A stretch of DNA of 64,000 bases from Chthoniobacterales bacterium (lineage in GTDB: Bacteria; Verrucomicrobiota; Verrucomicrobiia; Chthoniobacterales; UBA10450): positions 1 through 64,000 of the forward strand of contig JAICUQ010000002.1 in assembly GCA_025935755.1 (NCBI GenBank), written 5' to 3'. A model generated the notes under the pieces. That model saw nothing but the letters and a program-made list of their open reading frames with translations, searched no databases and was not told the origin of the DNA. The position numbers and the translations under genes were made by a program. Shown here piece after piece: positions 4,698-32,580 of this stretch; within the stretch, counting starts at the first letter, position 1, and each line of letters begins with the position of its first letter.

Positions 4698-6053
4698 TCA
4701 TGACTTCTTCATCAGATCCAGCACGGCCGTCGTCATTCCGATAATCGCTGTTCGAATCGTCGGCTCAGGGACGGGTGCGAATTTGCTCGAATGCAACGTC
4801 GGCAATTCCTTCCCCGTCTGTTTAGACTCTGCAATCTTCGCTGGATCAACTGCTCCAAAATGAGCATAAACCGCGGGAATCGAATGATCCGGCAGACTGT
4901 ATTCAGAGAAATCGTCGCCGCCCATCGTCGGGTCTACCATCTCGACATTGTTGTCGCCCAGTGCCTTTTTCCAAACAGCGACGAGCCGCTTCGTGAGGTC
5001 GGGATTATTGTAAGCCGCGACCGCAACCACATCCCTGGGCACGTTGACAATCGGAGCTAGCTCGGCCGGTATTCCAGCAGCAGCTGCACAGCCTTTGGCA
5101 ATCCGGGCGATATCTGCAAGCACGCGCTCGCGTACCTGAGGCTTATATGTGCGCACCGTGAGCTGCATCTTTACCTCATCCGGAATGATGTTGTGCTTGG
5201 TACCTCCGTGAATTGATCCCACCGTCACAACCACCGGATCGAGCGGATTATTTTCACGGCTTACGATGGTCTGCCATGCGTTAATGATTTGTGCTGCAAG
5301 GACGATCGGATCCTTGAGCTTGTGCGGGTAAGCACCGTGTCCGCCGACGCCCCGGACAGTGACATCAACGGAATCGACGTTCGCGGAAGTATATCCTTCC
5401 GTTACGCCGATGTGGCCGGCCGCAATGTCGGCTTTGTCGTGAAAACAAAGCGCAAAATTTGGTTTCCCGAATCGGTCGTAAAGTCCGTCTTTTAGTAACG
5501 CACGCGCGCCAGTACCAATCTCCTCTGCGGGTTGCGCCACGAACAGAATGGTCCCGTGCCACTGATCCTTTAACTTCCCAAGAACGCGCGCAGTGCCGAT
5601 AAAGGCCGCCATATGCGTGTCATGGCCGCAGGCGTGCATGACAGCGACTTCCTTACCGTCGTCATTTTTTGCGACAACATTGCTGGCATACGGCAGGCCG
5701 GTCTCTTCTTTAACAGGCAACGCATCCATGTCCGTGCGCACAAGCACAGTTGGCCCGTCGCCATTCTTCATCACTCCAACCACCCCGTAGGCGGTGTGCT
5801 TCGAGTTTTCATATTTCCCAAGGTGCTCGGTCACCTGGCAGCCAGTGGCGCGTAATTCTTTGGCCACCAGCGCTGCCGTTCTTTCCTCGTATCCCGATAA
5901 TTCCGGGTGAGTGTGGAGGTCTTTGTAGATCCCAAGCAACGATTGTAGTTCTGCGTCAGCGAGCGATTGCGACGTTTGCTGCGCGATTCCAAGCGCCGGC
6001 GCGAGAATGAAAATCAATACGATCGAAAACCACAATGCTTTCATTTTCTTCAT
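4698..6053 (-). CDS. Secreted M20D-family amidohydrolase (IAA-amino-acid hydrolase-like), copy 1
   Basis: 451 residues with a clear signal peptide (MKKMKALWFSIVLIFILAPALG), so exported. M20D enzymes are dinuclear metal hydrolases that cleave N-acyl amino acids or related amides. Visible: HACGHDTHMAAFIGTA with metal-binding Cys and His, PAEEIGTGA with the catalytic and metal Glu, the GGHGAYPH dimerisation-domain motif, MGGDDFSEYS, and the late metal His in LHSSKFAP. It is a close paralogue of the gene just upstream on the same strand (6132-7475), separated by 78 bp. Both probably arose by tandem duplication and may be co-transcribed. The substrate cannot be told from sequence; peptide-like amides outside the cytoplasm are likely. 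Confidence 0.85.
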   Translation of the reverse strand: MKKMKALWFSIVLIFILAPALGIAQQTSQSLADAELQSLLGIYKDLHTHPELSGYEERTAALVAKELRATGCQVTEHLGKYENSKHTAYGVVGVMKNGDGPTVLVRTDMDALPVKEETGLPYASNVVAKNDDGKEVAVMHACGHDTHMAAFIGTARVLGKLKDQWHGTILFVAQPAEEIGTGARALLKDGLYDRFGKPNFALCFHDKADIAAGHIGVTEGYTSANVDSVDVTVRGVGGHGAYPHKLKDPIVLAAQIINAWQTIVSRENNPLDPVVVTVGSIHGGTKHNIIPDEVKMQLTVRTYKPQVRERVLADIARIAKGCAAAAGIPAELAPIVNVPRDVVAVAAYNNPDLTKRLVAVWKKALGDNNVEMVDPTMGGDDFSEYSLPDHSIPAVYAHFGAVDPAKIAESKQTGKELPTLHSSKFAPVPEPTIRTAIIGMTTAVLDLMKKS

Positions 6054-6131
6054 TAAACGAGGCGAAGCATCCCTGAATTTATGCTCCGCGCAATACGGTT
6101 GAGCTTATCGATTTCCTCGCAATGATTGCGA

Positions 6132-7475
6132 TTACTTCTTCATCAGGTCGATGACGCTACTCGTCATACCGATTACAGCCGTACGAAGCGTCGGCTCGGG
6201 CAGCGGCAAAAATTTGCTGGAGTGCAATGACGGAAGGGACGCGCCTGTCTTCTTTGATTCCGCCGCCTTTTCAGGATCAACAGCGCCAACATGAAACATG
6301 CATGCTGGAACTGAATGGTCGGACAAACTGAAATCGGAAAAATCGTCGGCGCCCATTATTGGATCCTTATGAACAACATTGCTGTCGCCGATCGCGCTCT
6401 TCAGTGCTGCAGTCACGCGTCTGGTTAGATCGGGATTGTTGTAAGTCGCGTTCACCGCTTCCTCTTTCAAGACGTTCACTTCCGGCATTTTGTCGGACGG
6501 TAAACCGGCGGCTGTTGCGCAACCTTTCGCGATTCGAGCAATGGCGGCAAGGACGCGCTCGCGTACTTCGGGTTTGTACGTGCGTACTGTGAGCTGCATC
6601 TTCACTTCATCGGGAATGATATTGTGTTTGGTGCCTCCCTGGATTGATCCAACCGTGACAACAATCGGGTCCAGCGGATTGTTTTCGCGCGATGCAATGG
6701 TCTGCCACGCATTGATGATCTCCGCGGAAAGGACGATCGGGTCCTTAACCTTGTGCGGATATGCGCCGTGCCCTCCCACTCCTTTCACGAGCACATCAAC
6801 CGAATCCACATTGGCCTGCGTGTAACCTTCGGAAATCCCGATTTTTCCAGCCTCAATCTCAGCTTCGTCGTGTAAGGCCAGCGCATAATCGGGCTTGCCA
6901 AAATGCTTATAAAGTCCCGCGTTTAGCATCGCGTGCGCGCCGCCCACCATTTCCTCTGCCGGTTGACCAACGAAAATGATGGTGCCGTGCCACTCGTTCT
7001 TTAGCTTTGCCAGTACGCGAGCGGTTCCAATTAGAGCCGCCATATGGATGTCGTGCCCACAGGCGTGCATCACCGGAACTTCGGTGTCATCAGCCTTTTT
7101 CATTGTGACTTTGCTCGCGTATGGTGCGCCGGTCTGTTCCTGTACTGGCAACGCATCCATGTCGGCACGTACCAGCACTGTCGGGCCAGCGCCATTTTTC
7201 AAAACGCCTACTACGCCATAGCAGTGCGAGCTCGGGTTATCGTATTTGCCAAAGTTTTCTGTCACATCGCATCCAGCGGCGCGCAATTCCCTGGCGACAA
7301 TCCCGGCGCTTCGTTTTTCCTGGGTGGAAAGCTCCGGATGAACGTGGAGGTCTTTGTAGATCGTGAGTAGCGACGGCAGTTCCGCGTCGGCAAGCGATTG
7401 TAGAGTTTCCTGTGCCAAAAGCAGAGGAGCGAGCCAGAGGGACAGCAACAGAACCAACAATGAACGAATCGTCAT
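6132..7475 (-). CDS. Secreted M20D-family amidohydrolase, copy 2
   Basis: 447 residues, signal peptide MTIRSLLVLLLSLWLAPLLLA. It has the same domain plan and nearly the same motifs as the downstream copy: HACGHDIHMAALIGTA, PAEEMVGGA, GGHGAYPH, MGADDFSDFS and LHSSKFLP. Long identical stretches (for example HNIIPDEVKMQLTVRTYKP) show a recent tandem duplication. It differs in many surface positions and in the loop around residue 330, so the pair could have split substrates. It is the promoter-proximal gene of the pair; upstream lies a repeat element shared with the divergent DNA polymerase gene. Confidence 0.85.
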   Translation of the reverse strand: MTIRSLLVLLLSLWLAPLLLAQETLQSLADAELPSLLTIYKDLHVHPELSTQEKRSAGIVARELRAAGCDVTENFGKYDNPSSHCYGVVGVLKNGAGPTVLVRADMDALPVQEQTGAPYASKVTMKKADDTEVPVMHACGHDIHMAALIGTARVLAKLKNEWHGTIIFVGQPAEEMVGGAHAMLNAGLYKHFGKPDYALALHDEAEIEAGKIGISEGYTQANVDSVDVLVKGVGGHGAYPHKVKDPIVLSAEIINAWQTIASRENNPLDPIVVTVGSIQGGTKHNIIPDEVKMQLTVRTYKPEVRERVLAAIARIAKGCATAAGLPSDKMPEVNVLKEEAVNATYNNPDLTRRVTAALKSAIGDSNVVHKDPIMGADDFSDFSLSDHSVPACMFHVGAVDPEKAAESKKTGASLPSLHSSKFLPLPEPTLRTAVIGMTSSVIDLMKK

Positions 7476-7516
7476 TCCAGATTTATATCCGCAGTTTTCG
7501 CAGTTTGCATTTCTTT

Positions 7517-23677: not shown

Positions 23678-24235
23678 ATGCGAAAACTTCTCACCCCCAT
23701 CGTCGTCATCCTTTTAGGAGCCGCTGTATTTTGCCCCCGCGCTGCCCTGGCATTGCGATTCTCGGCGCCCACTCCCAAATTCAATTACACCGATGCTTCC
23801 GGCAAAAAGCAGTCGGTCGACGTCGTAGACAAGTATTATCCGAAGAAGATCACGCAGCCGATTGCCAAAGCAGATGGCAGCATCGATCCCAAATTGCGCC
23901 GTGCCGCAACGATCGCCGAAGAACGCGCGCGTGCGCACTCGCTTAAGAAGTGCTGGGCCTTTGTCAAAGAAGCACTTGTCGCTGCTGGCGTAGTGAAGTC
24001 CCGTCCGCAAACACCGTTAGCTAAACAAGCTGGCCAGGAACTCGTGAACCATTACGGATTCAAAAAGCTGCCAGTGACCGATCCTTATCAGGCGCCGGTC
24101 GGCTCTGTTCTGGTGTATGGCGCCAAGCGCGCTGCGGGCCATGTCGAAATTCGCACGGAGACAGGCTTCGTCAGCGACTTTCGATCAAAGATTCCTTCGC
24201 GCCGGCCGTTGCTCGGCGTTTTCGCCAAGAGCTAG
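23678..24235 (+). CDS. Small secreted CHAP-like cysteine hydrolase candidate
   Basis: 185 residues, signal peptide MRKLLTPIVVILLGAAVFCP. The C-terminal half has a Cys in LKKCWAFVKEAL (Cys92) at the start of a helix. After PVGSVLVYGA, typical of CHAP/NlpC-P60 domains, it has His155 in GHVEIRTETGF. This Cys-helix/His-strand layout suggests a papain-like amidase on peptidoglycan. The N-terminal 65 residues (about 27-90) are basic and unassigned. No lipobox. It is a single gene after a 109-bp gap. I am fairly sure of export, less sure of enzyme activity. Confidence 0.6.
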   Translation: MRKLLTPIVVILLGAAVFCPRAALALRFSAPTPKFNYTDASGKKQSVDVVDKYYPKKITQPIAKADGSIDPKLRRAATIAEERARAHSLKKCWAFVKEALVAAGVVKSRPQTPLAKQAGQELVNHYGFKKLPVTDPYQAPVGSVLVYGAKRAAGHVEIRTETGFVSDFRSKIPSRRPLLGVFAKS

Positions 24236-24354
24236 GTAAAACCTGCGGCTTCGGCGGCCAGCTATCGTATTAGGGGAGCCTATCCACCCAGTCAACGGAG
24301 ATCGCGTTCTCCTCACCATTGCATACGCGGCCCTGCCGCCTAACTATTCACATC

Positions 24355-25080
24355 GTGAGCGTGCGCATCGCCATGTGGTCTGGTCCGCGAAATATCTCGA
24401 CGGGTATGATGCGCTCATGGGGTAATCGGGACGATACTATCGTTATCGATGAGCCATTTTATGCTTATTACCTCAAAGCCACGGGCATAGAACATCCCGG
24501 CGGTGAGGAGGTCATTGCGACCGGCGAAACCGATTGGCGGAAAGTCGTTGCCCAGCTGACCGGACCGATGGCGAATGGTAAGCAGATTTTTTTTCAGAAA
24601 CAGATGACACATCATCTGTTGCCCGGGATAGATCGCGAATGGCTTGGAGCAGTGACCAATTGCTTTCTTATTCGCGACCCACGGGAAGTCATTCATTCGT
24701 ACATAAAAAAGCGAGAAGATCCCGCGCTCGAAGACCTCGGTTTCGTCCAGCAGGAAGAGATCTTTGATTTTGTGCGAACACATACGAGGAACGTGCCGCC
24801 GGTTGTCGATGCCGGAGACGTACTTCGAAATCCGGAGCGGACCCTGCGGCTGCTCTGCGAGGCAATCGGAGTCGAATTTAGCAAGTCGATGCTTTCCTGG
24901 CCGCCGGGATTTCGCGACACCGACGGTATTTGGGCCAAGCATTGGTACGGCGAAGTGGCGAAAACGACTTCGTTTCAGCCGTATCATCCGAGCGACCACA
25001 AAGTGCCTGGAACTTTACACGAGATTTACGATCGCTGCCGCGAGTGTTACCAAAAGTTGTCCGAATATCGACTACGCTAA
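24355..25080 (+). CDS. Sulfotransferase-like P-loop protein paired with an aminotransferase-like gene
   Basis: 241 residues from the GTG at 24355 (a TTG at 24319 is also open). The N-terminal loop MWSGPRNISTGMMRSW matches the phosphosulfate-binding loop of the sulfotransferase superfamily. TNCFLIRDPREVIHSYIK matches the 3'-phosphate-binding segment. No other sulfotransferase signature can be assigned. The next gene (25229) encodes a class IV aminotransferase-like protein. From memory, plant genomes encode one long protein joining these same two domains (branched-chain aminotransferase-like proteins), so the pairing is probably functional. Substrate unknown. Confidence 0.72.
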   Translation: MSVRIAMWSGPRNISTGMMRSWGNRDDTIVIDEPFYAYYLKATGIEHPGGEEVIATGETDWRKVVAQLTGPMANGKQIFFQKQMTHHLLPGIDREWLGAVTNCFLIRDPREVIHSYIKKREDPALEDLGFVQQEEIFDFVRTHTRNVPPVVDAGDVLRNPERTLRLLCEAIGVEFSKSMLSWPPGFRDTDGIWAKHWYGEVAKTTSFQPYHPSDHKVPGTLHEIYDRCRECYQKLSEYRLR

Positions 25081-25099
25081 TTTCTCCGACAGCGCCGCA

Positions 25100-25131
25100 A
25101 AAAAGCGGCGCCAGGTCGCCGCACTACAAAG
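25100..25131. repeat. Short repeat (AAAGCGGCG...CGCCGCACTACAAAG)
   Basis: Imperfect palindrome AAAGCGGCGCCA-GGTCGCCGCACT with a CAAAG end. An inverted copy lies at 48733-48763. It sits in the 148-bp spacer between the sulfotransferase-like and aminotransferase-like genes. Confidence 0.6.
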
Positions 25132-25183
25132 CGGGGGTTCGCGCTCCAAATCCCGATCAGCCACTTGGAATTCTTAACCTGAA

Positions 25184-25208
25184 ATTCGTGTTCATTCGTG
25201 TGGATTAG
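25184..25208. repeat. ATTCGTGT direct-repeat unit
   Basis: Two direct copies of ATTCGTGT (25184 and 25194) followed by GGATTAGTG. I recognise this type of intergenic repeat from other genomes (from memory). It ends at the GTG that could serve as an upstream start for the next gene. Confidence 0.45.
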
Positions 25209-25228
25209 TGATTAGCTTTTCTGGCCTC

Positions 25229-26155
25229 ATGCTTCAGAAATTCGATGAGCGAAACCGGGACCTGATCGCAAACATCAACGGGGACCTGGTGCATCGCGAT
25301 AAGGCTGCGATCAGTCCGTTTGATTCGGCCGTGCAGGGAGGCGACGCGGTCTGGGAAGGATTGCGACTGTACAACGGCCGGATTTTCAAGCTGCACGAGC
25401 ATCTCGACCGCCTCGAGCGTTCAGCGCGCGCAGTTTCGTTGGCCGAAATCCCTCCGCGCGAAAAAATTATTGACGAAATTAAACGCACGCTGGCGGCGAA
25501 CAAAATGCGCGACGGCGCTCATATTCGGCTAACGCTCACGCGCGGAGTGAAAATTACTTCGGGCATGGACCCCCGACTCAACCAGAGCGGGCCGACACTG
25601 ATCGTGCTCGCCGAGCATAAGCCGCCGGTGTACGCGAAATCCGGGCTGAACTTAATCACGAGCAAGACCCGCCGCCCGCCGCCGGAGGTTCTGGATGCGC
25701 GGATCCATCATGCAAACTTGCTGAACTCGATTCTGGCAAAGATCGAAGCGAACAATGCCGGCGCGGATGACGCGCTCATGCTCGACACGCGCGGGTTCGT
25801 TGCTGAAACAAACGCGACGCACGTGTTCATTGTGCGTGGTTCCAATGGATCTAGCGGCACAAGCGAGCTGGCAACCAGCCGCGTGTTAGCCTGCCCGGAG
25901 GGAATCACTCGTGCAACCGTGGTCGAAATTTGTGTTGCCGAAAAGATCCGGTGCATCGAGACCGACCTGTCTCCTGCCGATATCTACGGCGCTGACGAGA
26001 TGTTCTGCACTGGAACAATGGGCGAATTAGCAGGCGTAATTAGAGTCGACAATCGTCAGATCGGCGATGGAAACATTGGGCCGATGACGAAATATCTGAG
26101 CGATCTGTACCTAAAGCGAACCGCGACCGAAGGGGTGCAGGTCGTGGATATTTAA
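25229..26155 (+). CDS. Class IV aminotransferase-like protein lacking the PLP lysine
   Basis: 308 residues from the ATG at 25229 (GTG at 25208 possible). The fold is that of branched-chain/D-amino-acid aminotransferases: VWEGLRLYNGRIFKLHEHL, NSILAKIEANNAGADDALML, GFVAETNATHVFIV, GITRATVVE, DEMFCTGTMGELAGV. The segment that normally carries the Schiff-base lysine (IKxxNxL) reads RIHHANLLNS, placing His160 at the Lys position. Classical PLP aldimine chemistry is therefore unlikely. From memory the same IHH replacement occurs in the plant fusion homologues, which suggests a conserved subfamily rather than damage. It probably works with the preceding sulfotransferase-like protein. Function unknown. 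Confidence 0.75.
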   Translation: MLQKFDERNRDLIANINGDLVHRDKAAISPFDSAVQGGDAVWEGLRLYNGRIFKLHEHLDRLERSARAVSLAEIPPREKIIDEIKRTLAANKMRDGAHIRLTLTRGVKITSGMDPRLNQSGPTLIVLAEHKPPVYAKSGLNLITSKTRRPPPEVLDARIHHANLLNSILAKIEANNAGADDALMLDTRGFVAETNATHVFIVRGSNGSSGTSELATSRVLACPEGITRATVVEICVAEKIRCIETDLSPADIYGADEMFCTGTMGELAGVIRVDNRQIGDGNIGPMTKYLSDLYLKRTATEGVQVVDI

Positions 26156-26171
26156 AAACTCAATCGTTTTT

Positions 26172-26900
26172 TCACAACTGTTGGGCTGGCCGGATAAATC
26201 CCAGCAGGATCGCAACCGGAATGGCCGTGTAACCAATAAAAAGAAGCCACGCGAAGATCCGGCCGCCTACCGCGAGACGCGGCGTCAGTTTCTTGTCATT
26301 GAATCCGAGCGATTGGAAGAAACTCGAGGATCCGTGGCTCAGATGAAGCGTGAGCAAGAAAAGACCGACAATGTAGAAAGCAGACACATAGTAATTCTGG
26401 AATCCGTACACCATCATCGAATAGACGTCGTAATGCCCGAGCGGATCAGCCTTGAGCAGGGCAAAACGAGGGTCGGTCACGCGTACCGTGAAATGCGCAA
26501 GATGATAAATGATAAACGCGAGCACGATCAACCCGCTGATCACCATGTGACGGGAAGCGAATGTGGCTTTGACATACTCCCGATCAACGTACGGCTCTGG
26601 TCGGGCACGCCGGTTCTCGATAGCCAGCTGAATTGTCACGTAAATATGAATGACCACAGCGGCGAGCAGGAACAATCGAATTAACCACAGCAAAGGGCCG
26701 AGATCGCGCAGATGTTGCGCGTACCCGTTGATCCAATCCGGGCCCAAAAAAATCTGCAGATTCCCCAGCAGATGTCCGACAACGAAAACGATCAAAATGA
26801 CGCCGGTCACGGCGACGATCATTTTCTTTCCGACCGATGAGCGATAAAAAGCAGCGAAAATATTCACCGAGATTTGGCGCACGGCGAGGGGTTGCCGCAC
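26172..26900 (-). CDS. sdhC: Succinate dehydrogenase cytochrome b558 subunit
   Basis: 242 residues, start uncertain (GTG 26900; other in-frame GTGs at 26882 and 26867). It anchors SdhAB to the inner membrane and carries haem b, passing electrons from succinate to (mena)quinone. Five membrane helices are visible. Histidines suited to haem or quinone binding occur in VVGHLLGNLQ, AAVVIHIYVT, SRHMVISG, IIYHLAHFTV and LHLSHGSSSFFQSLG. This single five-helix subunit is the Bacillus/epsilon-type (b558 family), not the SdhC+SdhD type. Its partners sdhA and sdhB lie 23 kb away at 49.7-52.8 kb. It is convergent with the aminotransferase-like gene and divergent from the sugar transferase. Confidence 0.88.
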   Translation of the reverse strand: MRQPLAVRQISVNIFAAFYRSSVGKKMIVAVTGVILIVFVVGHLLGNLQIFLGPDWINGYAQHLRDLGPLLWLIRLFLLAAVVIHIYVTIQLAIENRRARPEPYVDREYVKATFASRHMVISGLIVLAFIIYHLAHFTVRVTDPRFALLKADPLGHYDVYSMMVYGFQNYYVSAFYIVGLFLLTLHLSHGSSSFFQSLGFNDKKLTPRLAVGGRIFAWLLFIGYTAIPVAILLGFIRPAQQL

Positions 26901-26990
26901 TCATCAGATTATAAACACCGCTCCGAGCGTCAAGACCGCACCCGTTCGCGCAGCCCGGATCCCACTCGTGACTGGGGCGATAAGCAATCT

Positions 26991-27019
26991 TTTACTTCAC
27001 TTTACCCCGAGGATATAAT
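26991..27019 (+). promoter_or_regulatory. Sigma70-type promoter before the sugar transferase
   Basis: TTTACT (26991-26996), a 17-bp spacer, then a perfect TATAAT (27014-27019). Transcription would start near 27026, only a few bases before the ATG at 27030. This implies a very short or leaderless mRNA, or that a later ATG (27126) is used. Confidence 0.45.
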
Positions 27020-27029
27020 TGCCGGCCTG

Positions 27030-28541
27030 ATGCCCAACACCCGAGAGCCTCAGACGGTTGTGCAGGAGATCCCTGGCTTCAAGGAGGATCGTTCAGCATT
27101 TCCGAGCGGACGCGCTGACATCATCATGCCGCGGGTCGGCTTCTGGTCGCACTTTCTAAGCCACGAATGGTCGTCAGCTGCGCTCTATCTGTTTTTGGAT
27201 GTGGTGAGCTGGCTAACTATTTACCGAATCGCAGGGTGGTTCCGATACGACGCATTTTATGCGACGCCATTTCAATTCTTCATTGTCAATTTCATTCAGC
27301 TCAGCGTGATTGTAGCGGCGCTGTACTTTGTTGGCGGTTACGATCGGACAGTCGAGAAGTTGACCCTTGGTTATGCCGCCGAGCACATTCTTGCGGTGGC
27401 CGCAGCCGGGCTGGTCAGCGCAATGCTGATCTATTCCGCGGCGACGTTTGATCAGACGATGAAGCCGAGCCGCGGTGTGCTGCTTTTGAGCTTCGCACTT
27501 TTTCTCCCGCTGTCCCTCGCTTACCGCCGGTGGATTCGGCAATATGTCGTTGCGAGCAGCGCAGGCCGCTCTTTTCTCGTGATTGGAGGCGGCGCTACGG
27601 CAAGGCATTTTTACGAGGCCTACAAGAAGTCTTCCAATGGCCAGCAACTGGAATTCGTAGCTGTGGGTGAGGAGCATGTCGGTCAGCGAATCGCCGGTGA
27701 GGGATCTCCGATTGTGCAGGGAGATCTTGCGTCAAAGTTGGACAACCCCGGTAATCGCTACAACGGAATTATCCTTGCCGAGCGAGCAGGCTCTCTGAAT
27801 GACCAATTGCTCGAACGGCTCGTGCATGCGCAGTTCCAGGAAACACGCGTTTACACTTTGGAATCCTTCTATGAAACACAATGGCGTTATCTGCCACTCG
27901 GTATTGTCGATCCCTTTTGGCCGTTGCAGACGGGATTTCAATTGGCGCGTACTTCGCCTTACCACTACCTGAAACGGCTTTTTGATATCACCGCTTCAGC
28001 AACCGCGCTGGCCATTTGTTCTCCGCTGTTCGTTCTCATTCCTCTTTTGATTTGGATCGAAGACGGCGCTCCGGTTCTGTTCAGACAGGAAAGAGTCGGG
28101 CGCGACGGAAAGCGTTTTATACTTTTCAAATTCCGGACGATGCGTTGTCGCGGCGACGAGCCGGATGGGGATCTGTATACGCGTGAAGGTGACCCCCGGG
28201 TGACGCGTGTCGGGCGATGGCTGCGGAAACTTCGGCTCGATGAGTTGCCACAGCTTTGCAACGCCATAAAAGGAGACATTAGCCTGATTGGTCCGCGGCC
28301 AGAATGGAGCAAGTGCGCCGAACGATACGAGCGAAGCATCCCCTTTTATCATTTTCGCCACCTGGTGAAGCCAGGAATTACCGGATGGGCGCAGGTCAAT
28401 TATCCTTACGGCGAGAGTGACAGGGACGCGGTTGAAAAACTAAAATACGACCTTTACTACATCCGACATTACTCGCTAAAGCTGGATGCCATGATCGTGT
28501 TGAAAACCTTATACACGATGCTCTTTGGTAAGGGCCGCTGA
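27030..28541 (+). CDS. Undecaprenyl-phosphate sugar-1-phosphate transferase (exopolysaccharide initiation)
   Basis: 503 residues from the ATG at 27030. Four N-terminal membrane helices and a Rossmann-like CoA-binding-type domain (SFLVIGGGATARHFYEAYK) are followed by a fifth helix. The PglC/WcaJ-type catalytic domain then fills the C-terminus: FRQERVGRDGKRFILFKFRT, the Arg/Asp cluster LRKLRLDELPQL, GDISLIGPRPEW and KPGITGWAQVNYPYG. These enzymes load the first sugar phosphate onto undecaprenyl phosphate at the inner membrane. It opens the polysaccharide locus and is followed 18 bp later by a ligase/polymerase gene. The sugar (glucose or galactose) cannot be told. Confidence 0.9.
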   Translation: MPNTREPQTVVQEIPGFKEDRSAFPSGRADIIMPRVGFWSHFLSHEWSSAALYLFLDVVSWLTIYRIAGWFRYDAFYATPFQFFIVNFIQLSVIVAALYFVGGYDRTVEKLTLGYAAEHILAVAAAGLVSAMLIYSAATFDQTMKPSRGVLLLSFALFLPLSLAYRRWIRQYVVASSAGRSFLVIGGGATARHFYEAYKKSSNGQQLEFVAVGEEHVGQRIAGEGSPIVQGDLASKLDNPGNRYNGIILAERAGSLNDQLLERLVHAQFQETRVYTLESFYETQWRYLPLGIVDPFWPLQTGFQLARTSPYHYLKRLFDITASATALAICSPLFVLIPLLIWIEDGAPVLFRQERVGRDGKRFILFKFRTMRCRGDEPDGDLYTREGDPRVTRVGRWLRKLRLDELPQLCNAIKGDISLIGPRPEWSKCAERYERSIPFYHFRHLVKPGITGWAQVNYPYGESDRDAVEKLKYDLYYIRHYSLKLDAMIVLKTLYTMLFGKGR

Positions 28542-28559
28542 GTACGGCACGAGCGGTAT

Positions 28560-30020
28560 TTGGTCGTATCGATTGATAAACTTTTCTTTTTCACAGCATT
28601 CCCGGTGATCTCAATCCTCTTCCGCAGGGCTTCTCGCTGGATTTTCTTTGCTGCCCTTGCCTACGCTCCCTGGGCATACGGCGCCACAACGTCGGCGACT
28701 ATCAACACAACGAATTGGATATTGCTCACCGCAATCGGGCTTTGGGGAGCCGAGCTACTCACCAGCAGGCGGCGTCCAGGTTTACCTCCCTTTCTTCTCA
28801 TCCTGGCTGGCGCGTTGATTTGCATCGGAGGCTGGATGGTCCTGAATGCCAAATCTATTTATGACCCGGAATTTTCCCTTTTTGTGCAACTGCGGAATGT
28901 TGCCCCGTTTTTCACCGGTTCACTCGATTATGCGAACAGTGCAGCATGGATGTTGCGGGGCACGTTACTGCTCGGAACGATATTGTTCGTCTGCGATCTG
29001 TCGCAAAGCAGTCGGTGGTTGCTGCGACTGTGGTACGTCATCGGCCTGGTCGGCGGTTCGATAGCATTTTTAGGTTTACTACAGAAAGCGACCGGAGCGC
29101 AGATGATTTTCTGGCAGCCGCCACCGCCGCCGGAATATGGAGTAACGACATTTTTCGCGACGTACTTTTACCACGGCAATGCCGGTGCTTTCCTGAATTT
29201 GGTATGGCCCTTGAGCTCCGGCCTGGTTATCCGGGCGTTTACAAGCCAATCTCGGCCAGGTATGCGCGCGCTGTGGACGATCGTTTTTGTTATAACGATC
29301 GCAGGAGTGCTGGCCAACACGTCGCGGATGGCCCAGGTCGTCGCGCTTGTATTGCTGGTGGCGATCGGCCTTCATTTTGGCCCCGGTTTATTGCGAAGAC
29401 TACCCGGCGCCCGGATCAGTGTCGCTATCGCCGGCATGCTTGCTCTCGCTTTCGCACTGATTGCCCTGGCTCAGGCGATTCATCTGGAACAGCCGCTTAA
29501 TCGCTGGCAAGCCATGAGCGAGCAAATTCCAGGCGATGCACGCTGGCAAGCTTCTCGCGTCGCATTGCACGCACTGCCTGGTGCCGGATTTTTTGGATTT
29601 GGTCCAGGCACATTTCGCGTTGTGTTCCCAAGCTACAACGTCGGATCTGAGCACCCGGTTCCGGGGAGCTGGCGATTTTTACACCAGGATTATCTCCAAA
29701 CTGTTATCGAATGGGGTTGGCTCGGAAGCAGCCTGTGGGCGCTGCTCTTTTTCGGTGGAATCCTAGTGGGAATTTTGAGTTACCACAGGTACGCCAGGCG
29801 ACACTGGATGCCGAGGAGACGGGTGATGCAGCCGCTAATTATCGTCGCTCTCGCGGGAGTGGCGACGCATGCGTTGGTCGATTTTCCATTTCAAATCGAA
29901 TCGATCCAGCTTTATGTGGCAACATATCTCGGAGTTTGCTGGGGAAGTCGCTTATGGTACGACCACTCAGCGACCGCAGATGACAGGTCGAAGTCCCTGG
30001 TCAGGACGGGATACCGATGA
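28560..30020 (+). CDS. O-antigen ligase/polymerase-family membrane protein
   Basis: 486 residues if the TTG at 28560 is used; a GTG at 28605 would also work, and there is no ATG before the first helices. About 11-12 membrane helices. The Wzy_C-type periplasmic loop is visible near residues 340-385: FGFGPGTFRVVFPSYN and the signature HQDYLQTVIEWGWLGSS. Members either polymerise repeat units (Wzy) or ligate glycans to lipid A or protein. In this locus with Wza- and Wzc-like proteins, a Wzy polymerase role is the simpler reading. It ends 1 bp before the convergent stop of the tyrosine kinase gene. Confidence 0.8.
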   Translation: MVVSIDKLFFFTAFPVISILFRRASRWIFFAALAYAPWAYGATTSATINTTNWILLTAIGLWGAELLTSRRRPGLPPFLLILAGALICIGGWMVLNAKSIYDPEFSLFVQLRNVAPFFTGSLDYANSAAWMLRGTLLLGTILFVCDLSQSSRWLLRLWYVIGLVGGSIAFLGLLQKATGAQMIFWQPPPPPEYGVTTFFATYFYHGNAGAFLNLVWPLSSGLVIRAFTSQSRPGMRALWTIVFVITIAGVLANTSRMAQVVALVLLVAIGLHFGPGLLRRLPGARISVAIAGMLALAFALIALAQAIHLEQPLNRWQAMSEQIPGDARWQASRVALHALPGAGFFGFGPGTFRVVFPSYNVGSEHPVPGSWRFLHQDYLQTVIEWGWLGSSLWALLFFGGILVGILSYHRYARRHWMPRRRVMQPLIIVALAGVATHALVDFPFQIESIQLYVATYLGVCWGSRLWYDHSATADDRSKSLVRTGYR

Positions 30021-30021
30021 T

Positions 30022-32580
30022 CTAAGCCCCGTTCCCACCGTTCCCGCTGTGATCTGAACCGTAACTAACTCGGTAACTTCGGGAGTAAGCGCCTTCTTCC
30101 TTACCGTAGCCGTGCGATGCGTAGTAGTAGTAGTAACCAACTCCGCGACTACGACGCAGACGATTCAGAATAAGACCAGCCGGACGAATCCCTGATTTGG
30201 CAAGCAACGAAATCGCCCGGCGAACGGCCTGCCGCGGAGTTTTCGCTGCTCGAACCACGATGCACAAAGTCTGAACATGCGGCGTCATGAGCAGCGTGTC
30301 GCTGACCGCGAGAATCGGAGCGCTATCGATCACAACTCGATCGTAGTGCGTGCAAGCCTCCGCGATCATTCGCCCGAAAAACGGGCCAGCGAGAATCTCT
30401 GCCGGATTCGGTGAGCGCCGCCCGCCGGCAAGGACAGAAAGTTGGCCTCCCCTCTCCGTGTGGATATTTCCCGTCACAGCAATGTTCTCGTCCACAATTT
30501 GGATTTCGCCGGCGGGAATTTGCCGCGCTGCTGCCGTTATCTCGGCCTCACCCAGCAGACAATCTATGACCCCGGGGTCGACCTCCTCCTCGGAGTTATA
30601 TCGAACGCTCGGAAAACGGAAAATCTTGTGCATCGTTGGCCGGCGCAGATCGCCGTCGATAAGCAGGACCCGATAGCCCTGTTGAGCCAGAGCAAGCGAA
30701 TAATTTGCGCTGGTAAAACTCTTTCCCTCGTTAGGCACTGCGCTCGTGAACAGCGAAACCTTGCGCTCCGCCTCCGGGCCCAGAAGCGCGAGCGCAGCTC
30801 GTAAATTGCGGAACGCTTCGGCAGCCGGACTTTCGGGAGTCTCCACAACGACGCGGTAATTTGAACTGGCAAACGCCTTCCTGCTTTTTCGTTTCAAACG
30901 GCTGACTGGTCCCTCATCGGTCGTGTCCGGCACAGCCGAGAAGACTGGCAACCCAATGGTGTTTTCCGCCTGGTCCACCGTTTTGATTGAACGATCCAAT
31001 GCATCTGCACCAAAAATGAATGCCAGCCCAACAACCAAACCACCCAGCAATCCCATGAGAATTGTCCTGGTGGGGCGCGGACTAACGGGCGATTGCGGAA
31101 GTGGCGAATGCTCGATGACGCTGACGGCGTTCGCTTTGACGTCTTTACTCAGACTTGTCTCTTTAATCTGGCGAAGAACACTCTCGTAAAGCGCCCGATC
31201 AGTTTCGGCTTGCCGCGCCAATTCCTGGTAGCCGATGGCGGTGCGATTCAGTGCGACCGCGACGCCTTGCTGATCCTGCAAGGCTCTACCGAGATTGTTC
31301 TCCGTAGCTTTGCCTTGCTCGATGGCGTTGCGCAGTAATGCGGGTTGCGCCACCACCGCTTCCCGGAGCTTATCTTTTGCATCGGCCAGGGACGCCTTAG
31401 CGGCAATCATCTTGGGATGTTTATCCTTGTAGCGCAGCGCGTAAGTAGTGATCGAAGCTTCGATCTGCCTGACCGTGCGCCGCGCCTCGGCAACCATTGG
31501 AGCGCTGGCGATACTCGGGATTTGAAGCAAAGCATCGATGTTATTTCCGCTTTTTTGGATTACTTGGATCTGCTCCAGTTCCCCTTCAAGCCGAATCCGG
31601 TCGGCTTTCGATGCGGTAAGCTTAGTGTTCAGGTCTTGCAGCTTATCTTCTACCAAGCCGCCGCGCGGCCCTCCGCTGCCTGAGCCCGATCCCTGTTGTG
31701 AACCGGTCGCAGCGGTACCGCCGCCCAGTTGCAAAGCATCGGGGTTTTTCGCTTTGTAATCAGCCACCGCCGCTTCACTCTTTTGAAGATTCGTCTTCAG
31801 TCGCTCTTCTTCTTCAAGCAAATAACGGAGCGCCTCTTCGCTCATCGACGCGCGCCGCTCGATGGAATTGCGGATGTATTCCCGCCCCACGGCTTCGGCG
31901 AGACGCTGAGCCATCACCGGATCGGGATGAGTGACATACAGATCGATCAAGCGTGTTCCTCTCCGGATCATTGGCCTTACCATGCCCGCCATCGCGCGCC
32001 CCAACCCTTCTTCGAGCGGCGTAAATGTTGTGCCGCCACTCGCGCCTTGACCCTTCGCTTCCGTCTGCGGTGTTTCTGTCTGTGGCGGCGGTGTAGACTT
32101 TTTATCCGGCACAACAGTTTCGCCCAAAAGCGCACGTCCACCGTCGGCGGCAAGACCTTCAGAGCGCACCACTCTCGAAAGCAGGGTTTGGTTTGTCAGA
32201 TTCTGTTCAATCGTCCTCAGCGCCTCCTGGCTGGCCAAAAACACCGACCGCATCCGCGTCGCGGAATCGTCGCTCGGCAGATAAGTCGGCTCCTGAAATT
32301 CCACCTCCAGCACCGTATGCCCCTGATAAAGCTTCGGCGTCCGCGCAAGGTAACCGAGCGCAAGGAAAAAACCGGCCAGGACACAAATGGCCACGATCCA
32401 AATGCGCTCGACGAAAGAATGCCAGAACCGGCGAATATCGAACTTCTGCAATCCCTCGGTATATTGTGCCGTCAGGTCGGCAAGAACGGGTTTCTCCGAG
32501 TTTGTCGGAACGGAGGTAGCTACGGAAGGTTGCGAATGATCGATCACGGCGGAATATCGGCTGCAATCATACACCAACAC
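30022..32580 (-). CDS. Wzc-like polysaccharide co-polymerase / bacterial tyrosine kinase
   Basis: 852 residues from a GTG at 32580 (GTG at 32547 also plausible). N-terminal Wzz domain with TM1 (IWIVAICVLAGFFLALGYL). A long coiled-coil periplasmic region follows, with a Gly/Ser-rich insert near residue 290, then TM2 (ILMGLLGGLVVGLAFIFGA). The cytoplasmic BY-kinase has Walker A VPNEGKSFTSAN, Walker A' VLLIDGDLRRP and Walker B RVVIDSAPIL. The tail has the tyrosine cluster GVGYYYYYASHGYGKEEG and further Tyr residues for autophosphorylation. It controls chain length and export of exopolysaccharide together with the Wza-like protein encoded just upstream. Confidence 0.9.
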   Translation of the reverse strand: MLVYDCSRYSAVIDHSQPSVATSVPTNSEKPVLADLTAQYTEGLQKFDIRRFWHSFVERIWIVAICVLAGFFLALGYLARTPKLYQGHTVLEVEFQEPTYLPSDDSATRMRSVFLASQEALRTIEQNLTNQTLLSRVVRSEGLAADGGRALLGETVVPDKKSTPPPQTETPQTEAKGQGASGGTTFTPLEEGLGRAMAGMVRPMIRRGTRLIDLYVTHPDPVMAQRLAEAVGREYIRNSIERRASMSEEALRYLLEEEERLKTNLQKSEAAVADYKAKNPDALQLGGGTAATGSQQGSGSGSGGPRGGLVEDKLQDLNTKLTASKADRIRLEGELEQIQVIQKSGNNIDALLQIPSIASAPMVAEARRTVRQIEASITTYALRYKDKHPKMIAAKASLADAKDKLREAVVAQPALLRNAIEQGKATENNLGRALQDQQGVAVALNRTAIGYQELARQAETDRALYESVLRQIKETSLSKDVKANAVSVIEHSPLPQSPVSPRPTRTILMGLLGGLVVGLAFIFGADALDRSIKTVDQAENTIGLPVFSAVPDTTDEGPVSRLKRKSRKAFASSNYRVVVETPESPAAEAFRNLRAALALLGPEAERKVSLFTSAVPNEGKSFTSANYSLALAQQGYRVLLIDGDLRRPTMHKIFRFPSVRYNSEEEVDPGVIDCLLGEAEITAAARQIPAGEIQIVDENIAVTGNIHTERGGQLSVLAGGRRSPNPAEILAGPFFGRMIAEACTHYDRVVIDSAPILAVSDTLLMTPHVQTLCIVVRAAKTPRQAVRRAISLLAKSGIRPAGLILNRLRRSRGVGYYYYYASHGYGKEEGAYSRSYRVSYGSDHSGNGGNGA

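Follow-up and report, generated by a model that had tools for sequence, protein, structure and literature searches.

Several described systems resemble one or both members of the gene pair considered here, in which a sulfotransferase gene is followed by a gene for a class IV aminotransferase-like (AT-like) protein. Plant branched-chain aminotransferase-like proteins may fuse the same two domains and carry an IHH motif, as the first-pass annotation suggests. CurM and olefin synthase sulfotransferases use sulfate as a leaving group. The domains of this latter type (PDB 4gbm and 4gox) are parts of polyketide synthases and lack a class IV partner. Branched-chain and D-amino-acid aminotransferases (PRK08320 and TIGR01122; PDB 5mqz and 5e25) carry both the Schiff-base lysine and a tyrosine at O3'. 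Natural loss of the lysine is seen in a protein of the same fold from Variovorax paradoxus (PDB 7z79; the N174K mutant is 9j32), and sampled members of its subgroup either adjoin amino-acid transporter genes or have no sulfotransferase. A 2025 survey of plant sulfotransferases searched with PF19798, and an aminotransferase is unmentioned in its text (PMC12506393). Literature searches for the two-domain fusion, for 7z79, and for sulfotransferases together with fold type IV proteins returned nothing relevant among open-access papers, a coverage that makes this absence weak evidence. Likewise, no description of a coupling between sulfotransferases and lysine-less proteins of this fold was found in open-access papers.

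The window (the whole 64,000-nucleotide stretch analyzed) carries both genes at 24355-26155. The first-pass annotation had described them as a pair, which is borne out by matches of the products to PF19798 and PF01063, with both genes on the forward strand. Residue numbers below refer to the open reading frames (ORFs) that begin at 25208 (AT-like) and 24319 (sulfotransferase), except where His160 is counted from the ATG. The features are as follows:

24355-25080, + strand: Sulfotransfer_5 (PF19798) sulfotransferase-like gene, GTG start at 24355, 241 aa; its ORF opens with TTG at 24319
24373-24402, + strand: 5'-phosphosulfate-binding loop MWSGPRNIST, residues 19-28 in the ORF from 24319; the core WSGPRNxST is invariant
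24670-24702, + strand: 3'-phosphate-binding motif IRDPREVIHSY, residues 118-128 in the ORF from 24319; Arg119 and Ser127 are invariant
25081-25228, no strand: intergenic gap of 148 bp between the sulfotransferase and AT-like genes
25229-26155, + strand: class IV aminotransferase-like gene without the PLP lysine, ATG start at 25229, 308 aa; its ORF opens with GTG at 25208
25700-25729, + strand: lysine-site motif RIHHANLLNS, whose first His is at the Schiff-base Lys position

No sigma-70-like promoter was found in the gap at 25081-25228, and a terminator-like hairpin is present there on the opposite strand only. Upstream of the pair, at 23678-24235 (+), lies a gene for a conserved small protein that matches no Pfam family and may carry a signal sequence. 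This gene is near the pair in 18 of the 80 loci described below, all of them near kin of the window lineage as far as seen. Downstream, positions 26874-32580 hold exopolysaccharide-type genes (a Bac_transf sugar transferase, an O-antigen-ligase-like Wzy_C protein, and a Wzz/tyrosine-kinase-like chain-length protein). A phage or defense origin of the pair was rejected, with zero PHROGs, PADLOC, or phage matches.

The sulfotransferase is matched by PF19798 with an E-value of 2.4e-51 and a score of 174.7 bits against a cut-off of 23.2 (Pfam), which narrows the predicted partner specifically to Sulfotransfer_5. Retention of both phosphate-binding motifs, another element of the first-pass annotation, holds across 27 aligned homologs, in which W20-N25, S27, and T28 as well as R119 and S127 are invariant. 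Top PDB matches of the AlphaFold model (pLDDT 92.5) are the CurM sulfotransferase and tyrosylprotein sulfotransferases, and the CurM and olefin synthase domains lead the sequence-profile and structure matches at only ~15% identity. The use of PAPS as donor is indirectly backed by outlying Sulfotransfer_5 genes that adjoin cysC or cysC/cysD, the genes whose products make PAPS; the window protein is very probably a PAPS-dependent sulfotransferase. Relatives outside the pair are also found in peptide-synthetase clusters of Streptomyces. Two loci might specify sulfated natural products, one being a cluster of this kind that holds both cysC and cysD (L219, 1467-6720) and the other a cyanobacterial plasmid from Dolichospermum, where the gene adjoins cysC (L113, 4989-6917). 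APS kinase is found in 9/9 pair-type genomes of the window's class but is also common in genomes without the pair, and therefore does not discriminate; it was dropped as a co-occurrence marker.

The second protein matches PF01063 (Aminotran_4) with an E-value of 6.6e-42 (Pfam). Among NCBIfam models, those for branched-chain aminotransferases score best, yet all curated cut-offs are missed (PRK08320, 243 bits against 363; TIGR01122, 184 bits against 245.55). When RIHHANLLNS is aligned to IKSLNYLNN, the first His (His160 from the ATG at 25229; His167 in the ORF from 25208) coincides with the Schiff-base Lys, as initially proposed. The same column is His in 89/89 close relatives, so neither a sequencing error nor a chance oddity accounts for it, and the second His of the motif is found in 82/89 family members. 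A class IV paralog in the same genome has the lysine (VKSLNYLNN), as do all readable next-best matches in the window's class. A mostly proteobacterial sister clade has Asn at this position in 30/30 scored proteins. The idea that homologs might commonly keep Lys is thus not borne out in either clade. The view of His as the replacement stands for a whole clade, but His is only one of two solutions, and the Asn clade is also paired with a sulfotransferase.

The PLP phosphate cup (Arg53, Thr234, Gly269, and Thr270 in the site table) is retained in both the His and Asn clades. The O3' Tyr is lost, being replaced by Leu or Gln in the His clade and by Lys or Arg in the Asn clade, whereas the pyridine-contacting Glu200 is present in the His clade and is Thr or Ser in the Asn clade. 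We take the roles of these residues from the branched-chain and D-amino-acid aminotransferases, with which the window protein has the fold and the phosphate cup in common, but whose Lys and O3' Tyr it lacks. Four residues (His105, Lys115, Glu136, and Asn202) are near-invariant in both Lys-less clades and missing from Lys-bearing relatives, and about one position in three does not vary between phyla, which includes polar and charged residues that are new. The pocket is retained and remodeled, not decayed, and it appears nearly certain that the protein is not a Lys-dependent transaminase. Its AlphaFold model is moderate (pLDDT 80.6; residues 40-44 and 115-127 are poor), and the best matches are 7z79 and the mutant 9j32, with a Foldseek E-value of 2.8e-28 to 7z79. 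Asn174 of 7z79 aligns with His160/167 of the window protein, and the two proteins have in common the insert RGxKxT...DPR and the four new residues named above. They differ in that 7z79 has Asn for His, Ser at the position of the pyridine-contacting Glu, and Arg at the position of the Tyr.

Trees unite the His and Asn clades into a single Lys-less clade with SH-aLRT support of 100 (33 Lys-less rows) and 99 (59 rows), although these are quick-search trees in which some outgroup branches are long. Every Lys-bearing protein sampled falls outside this clade, and the close outsiders all keep Lys. Most likely, a single loss of Schiff-base chemistry preceded the split between the two clades. The exchange of the pyridine-contacting Glu for Thr or Ser suggests that the His and Asn clades may differ in their chemistry and thus may not have one reaction in common. 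Most Asn-type genes are also paired with Sulfotransfer_5, mostly with the AT-like gene first, whereas the sulfotransferase gene comes first in the His clade. One locus of a planctomycete (L142, genome G258; 5828-7499, - strand) has an Asn-type gene directly upstream of a Sulfotransfer_5 gene with overlapping ORFs, which is the order typical of the Asn clade but found outside Pseudomonadota. The proteins of Variovorax, Pantoea, Paracoccus, and Agrobacterium form a coherent subclade nested within the Asn type, and in the latter three genera the genes lie beside amino-acid ABC transporters with no adjoining sulfotransferase. Because this branch is nested among sulfotransferase-paired proteins, linkage to the sulfotransferase probably came first, and the structures solved so far would belong to a derived branch. 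The same subclade suggests that a Lys-less protein can probably work alone. Genes for MmgE/PrpD proteins are found near Asn-type genes in Paracoccus, Pantoea, and one further proteobacterium (L114, 663-2129; L116, 2270-3664; L204, 7925-9277), hinting at a catabolic pathway in the Asn clade.

A scan of bacterial genomes gave 80 loci, with taxon names that are coarse for many assemblies, from Verrucomicrobiota, Planctomycetota, Acidobacteriota, Gemmatimonadota, Armatimonadota, Abditibacteriota, and Pseudomonadota. A same-strand sulfotransferase gene is present in 62/80, mostly immediately upstream and with a median gap of ~45 bases. Adjacency is far from confined to one genome, as it recurs in six phyla (Verrucomicrobiota, Planctomycetota, Acidobacteriota, Armatimonadota, Abditibacteriota, and Pseudomonadota), and the families co-occur even when their genes are not adjacent. 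At one locus (L053), both proteins are encoded in a single fused ORF, which may stem from misassembly or from the recent loss of a stop codon, since close relatives are unfused. No third gene conserved with the pair across phyla was found among the neighbors at the 80 loci, and thus no pathway points to the reaction. Several candidate associations were rejected. An aldo/keto reductase and the small upstream protein are conserved among close Verrucomicrobia only, and an argG-like gene near some sulfotransferases, which might have indicated a link to arginine biosynthesis, looks like a common chromosomal position in related genomes. G176 and G180, both without the sulfotransferase, are the only genomes in which an M24 peptidase gene adjoins that of the AT-like protein. 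At two loci from related genomes with zero Sulfotransfer_5 genes (L008, 383-2406; L009, 355-2400), a His-type gene with an IHS variant begins <10 bases after an M24 Xaa-Pro-peptidase-like gene, making this peptidase a possible alternative partner there.

Co-occurrence of the two families was scored in 686 genomes from three taxon samples, namely the window's class (Verrucomicrobiae, 188), Planctomycetota (199), and Pseudomonadota. Pooled, the sulfotransferase is present in 58/63 genomes with a Lys-less protein and in 0/623 without one (nominal p 6e-79, a value that takes no account of relatedness or of the two genomes that were re-scored after the fact). In the window's class, the Lys-less protein is found in 9/188 genomes and a strong Sulfotransfer_5 match in 7/9 of these; the other 179 have 0 strong matches, with one partial 36-bit match left aside. 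Among Planctomycetota, 27/199 genomes pass the first threshold (1e-70) and the sulfotransferase is present in 27/27. Two apparent sulfotransferase-only exceptions were dismissed after checking, because one genome (G323) has a contig-cut His-type gene and the other (G258) an adjacent Asn-type gene, which brings the count to 29/29. For Pseudomonadota, the figures are 22/25 Lys-less genomes and 0/274 others. The 5/63 genomes that have a Lys-less protein without the sulfotransferase may be over-counted, as many assemblies are incomplete. Both genes are present yet unlinked in several genomes, and the pair is also seen in both orders and with the Asn type, and the unlinked cases disfavor mere hitch-hiking in an operon. 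Co-divergence is also evident in the sequence statistics. A single change (support 94) splits the partners of His types from those of Asn types in the sulfotransferase tree, and the distance matrices of both families correlate (Mantel r 0.78, n=73), although both patterns are also partly expected from a shared history of the species. These distributions make the sulfotransferase and the AT-like protein an almost certainly obligate pair.

The explanation that we favor, with a probability of roughly 0.6, is an obligate two-component module that joins a PAPS sulfotransferase to a repurposed PLP-pocket protein, both acting on one metabolite. Sequence statistics show the pairing, the loss of Lys, the retained phosphate cup, the new invariant residues, and the co-divergence, whereas PAPS use, cofactor binding, and a common substrate are inferences. 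The first protein would be a small-molecule sulfotransferase that adds a sulfo group from PAPS. The second, of fold type IV, would bind PLP, PMP, or an amino substrate joined to pyridoxal phosphate, in each case without a covalent link to the protein, and the chances that it has such a ligand seem about even. His160 (Asn in the sister clade) together with His105, Lys115, Glu136, and Asn202 would handle a small anionic substrate. The two proteins would most likely act on the same metabolite, with the Lys-less protein making the acceptor or converting the product without Schiff-base transamination. Any statement about the reaction itself is a guess; the chemistry might be proton transfer, or elimination with sulfate leaving. 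Sulfate-assisted elimination is conceivable because the nearest sulfotransferase structures include enzymes with sulfate as leaving group (CurM and olefin synthase), but a role for sulfate as a leaving group in the pair seems rather unlikely.

The main rival is a pseudoenzyme, in which the AT-like protein would have no catalytic role but would serve the sulfotransferase as a ligand sensor or scaffold, and the old PLP pocket would bind an allosteric phosphate-bearing ligand. Such a subunit would fit the absence of both Lys and the O3' Tyr, the close tie between the two families, and the single-ORF fusion at L053. The invariance of ~1/3 of positions across phyla, new polar and charged residues included, exceeds what a mere scaffold leads one to expect; furthermore, unlinked copies are common and one subclade survives without an adjoining sulfotransferase, leaving this alternative rather unlikely. 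At the other extreme, an ordinary aminotransferase in which the exchange of Lys is neutral and the neighbor gene unrelated would account for the strong overall likeness to branched-chain aminotransferases, but this is scarcely credible when a residue other than Lys is invariant in two clades, the Tyr is lost along with it, the proteins form a separate clade, and the partner is near-obligate.

Two other alternatives assign a specific chemistry to the pocket. The sugar dehydratases ColD and E1 are PMP-dependent enzymes of fold type I in which His replaces Lys. A PMP-dependent enzyme with His acting in place of Lys as the base, as in these dehydratases, would agree with His in 89/89 relatives and with the retained phosphate cup and pyridine-contacting Glu, but the fold is different, and the Asn of the sister clade is a poor base that nonetheless has an identical partner, so this proposal is unlikely. 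Less likely still is synthesis of a sulfonated amino acid, for instance cysteate, by the pair, with PLP-bound or free aminoacrylate held in the PLP pocket and the sulfo group given from PAPS by the sulfotransferase. PAPS:2-aminoacrylate C-sulfotransferase activity is known from older taurine literature, and fold-type II elimination and replacement enzymes have Thr or Ser at the pyridine nitrogen, which the Glu-to-Thr/Ser change of the Asn clade resembles. This idea would also explain the combination of a PAPS-type enzyme with a PLP-pocket protein, and new invariant basic residues fit an anionic substrate. However, the Glu is kept in the His clade, taurine or sulfonate genes do not recur beside the pair, and a search of open-access papers for an activity combining PAPS and aminoacrylate was empty. 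If true, this reading would supply a gene for PAPS:2-aminoacrylate C-sulfotransferase activity.

The favored two-component module agrees with what had first been surmised from the window. Homologs in the His and Asn clades do not retain Lys and the pair is not peculiar to one genome, and the proposal of an ancient two-component enzyme that is probably not an aminotransferase therefore stands, supported by the Lys-less clade, the recurrent adjacency, and the co-occurrence. Tentatively, this enzyme might be widespread in bacteria, possibly fused in plants, and catalyze a reaction that resembles none described so far, for example C-sulfonation assisted by PLP or PMP, or an elimination activated by sulfate.

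Previously, one solved protein (7z79) had shown that the Schiff-base lysine can be lost. This loss now defines a whole clade with two replacements, whose members are accompanied in nearly every case by a single sulfotransferase family. Automated pipelines that label these genes as branched-chain aminotransferases are probably mistaken. Overall, an orphan structure and two probably misannotated families, one labeled branched-chain aminotransferase and the other generic sulfotransferase, become one testable enzyme system, with a concrete partner protein to add to assays that would fail without it.
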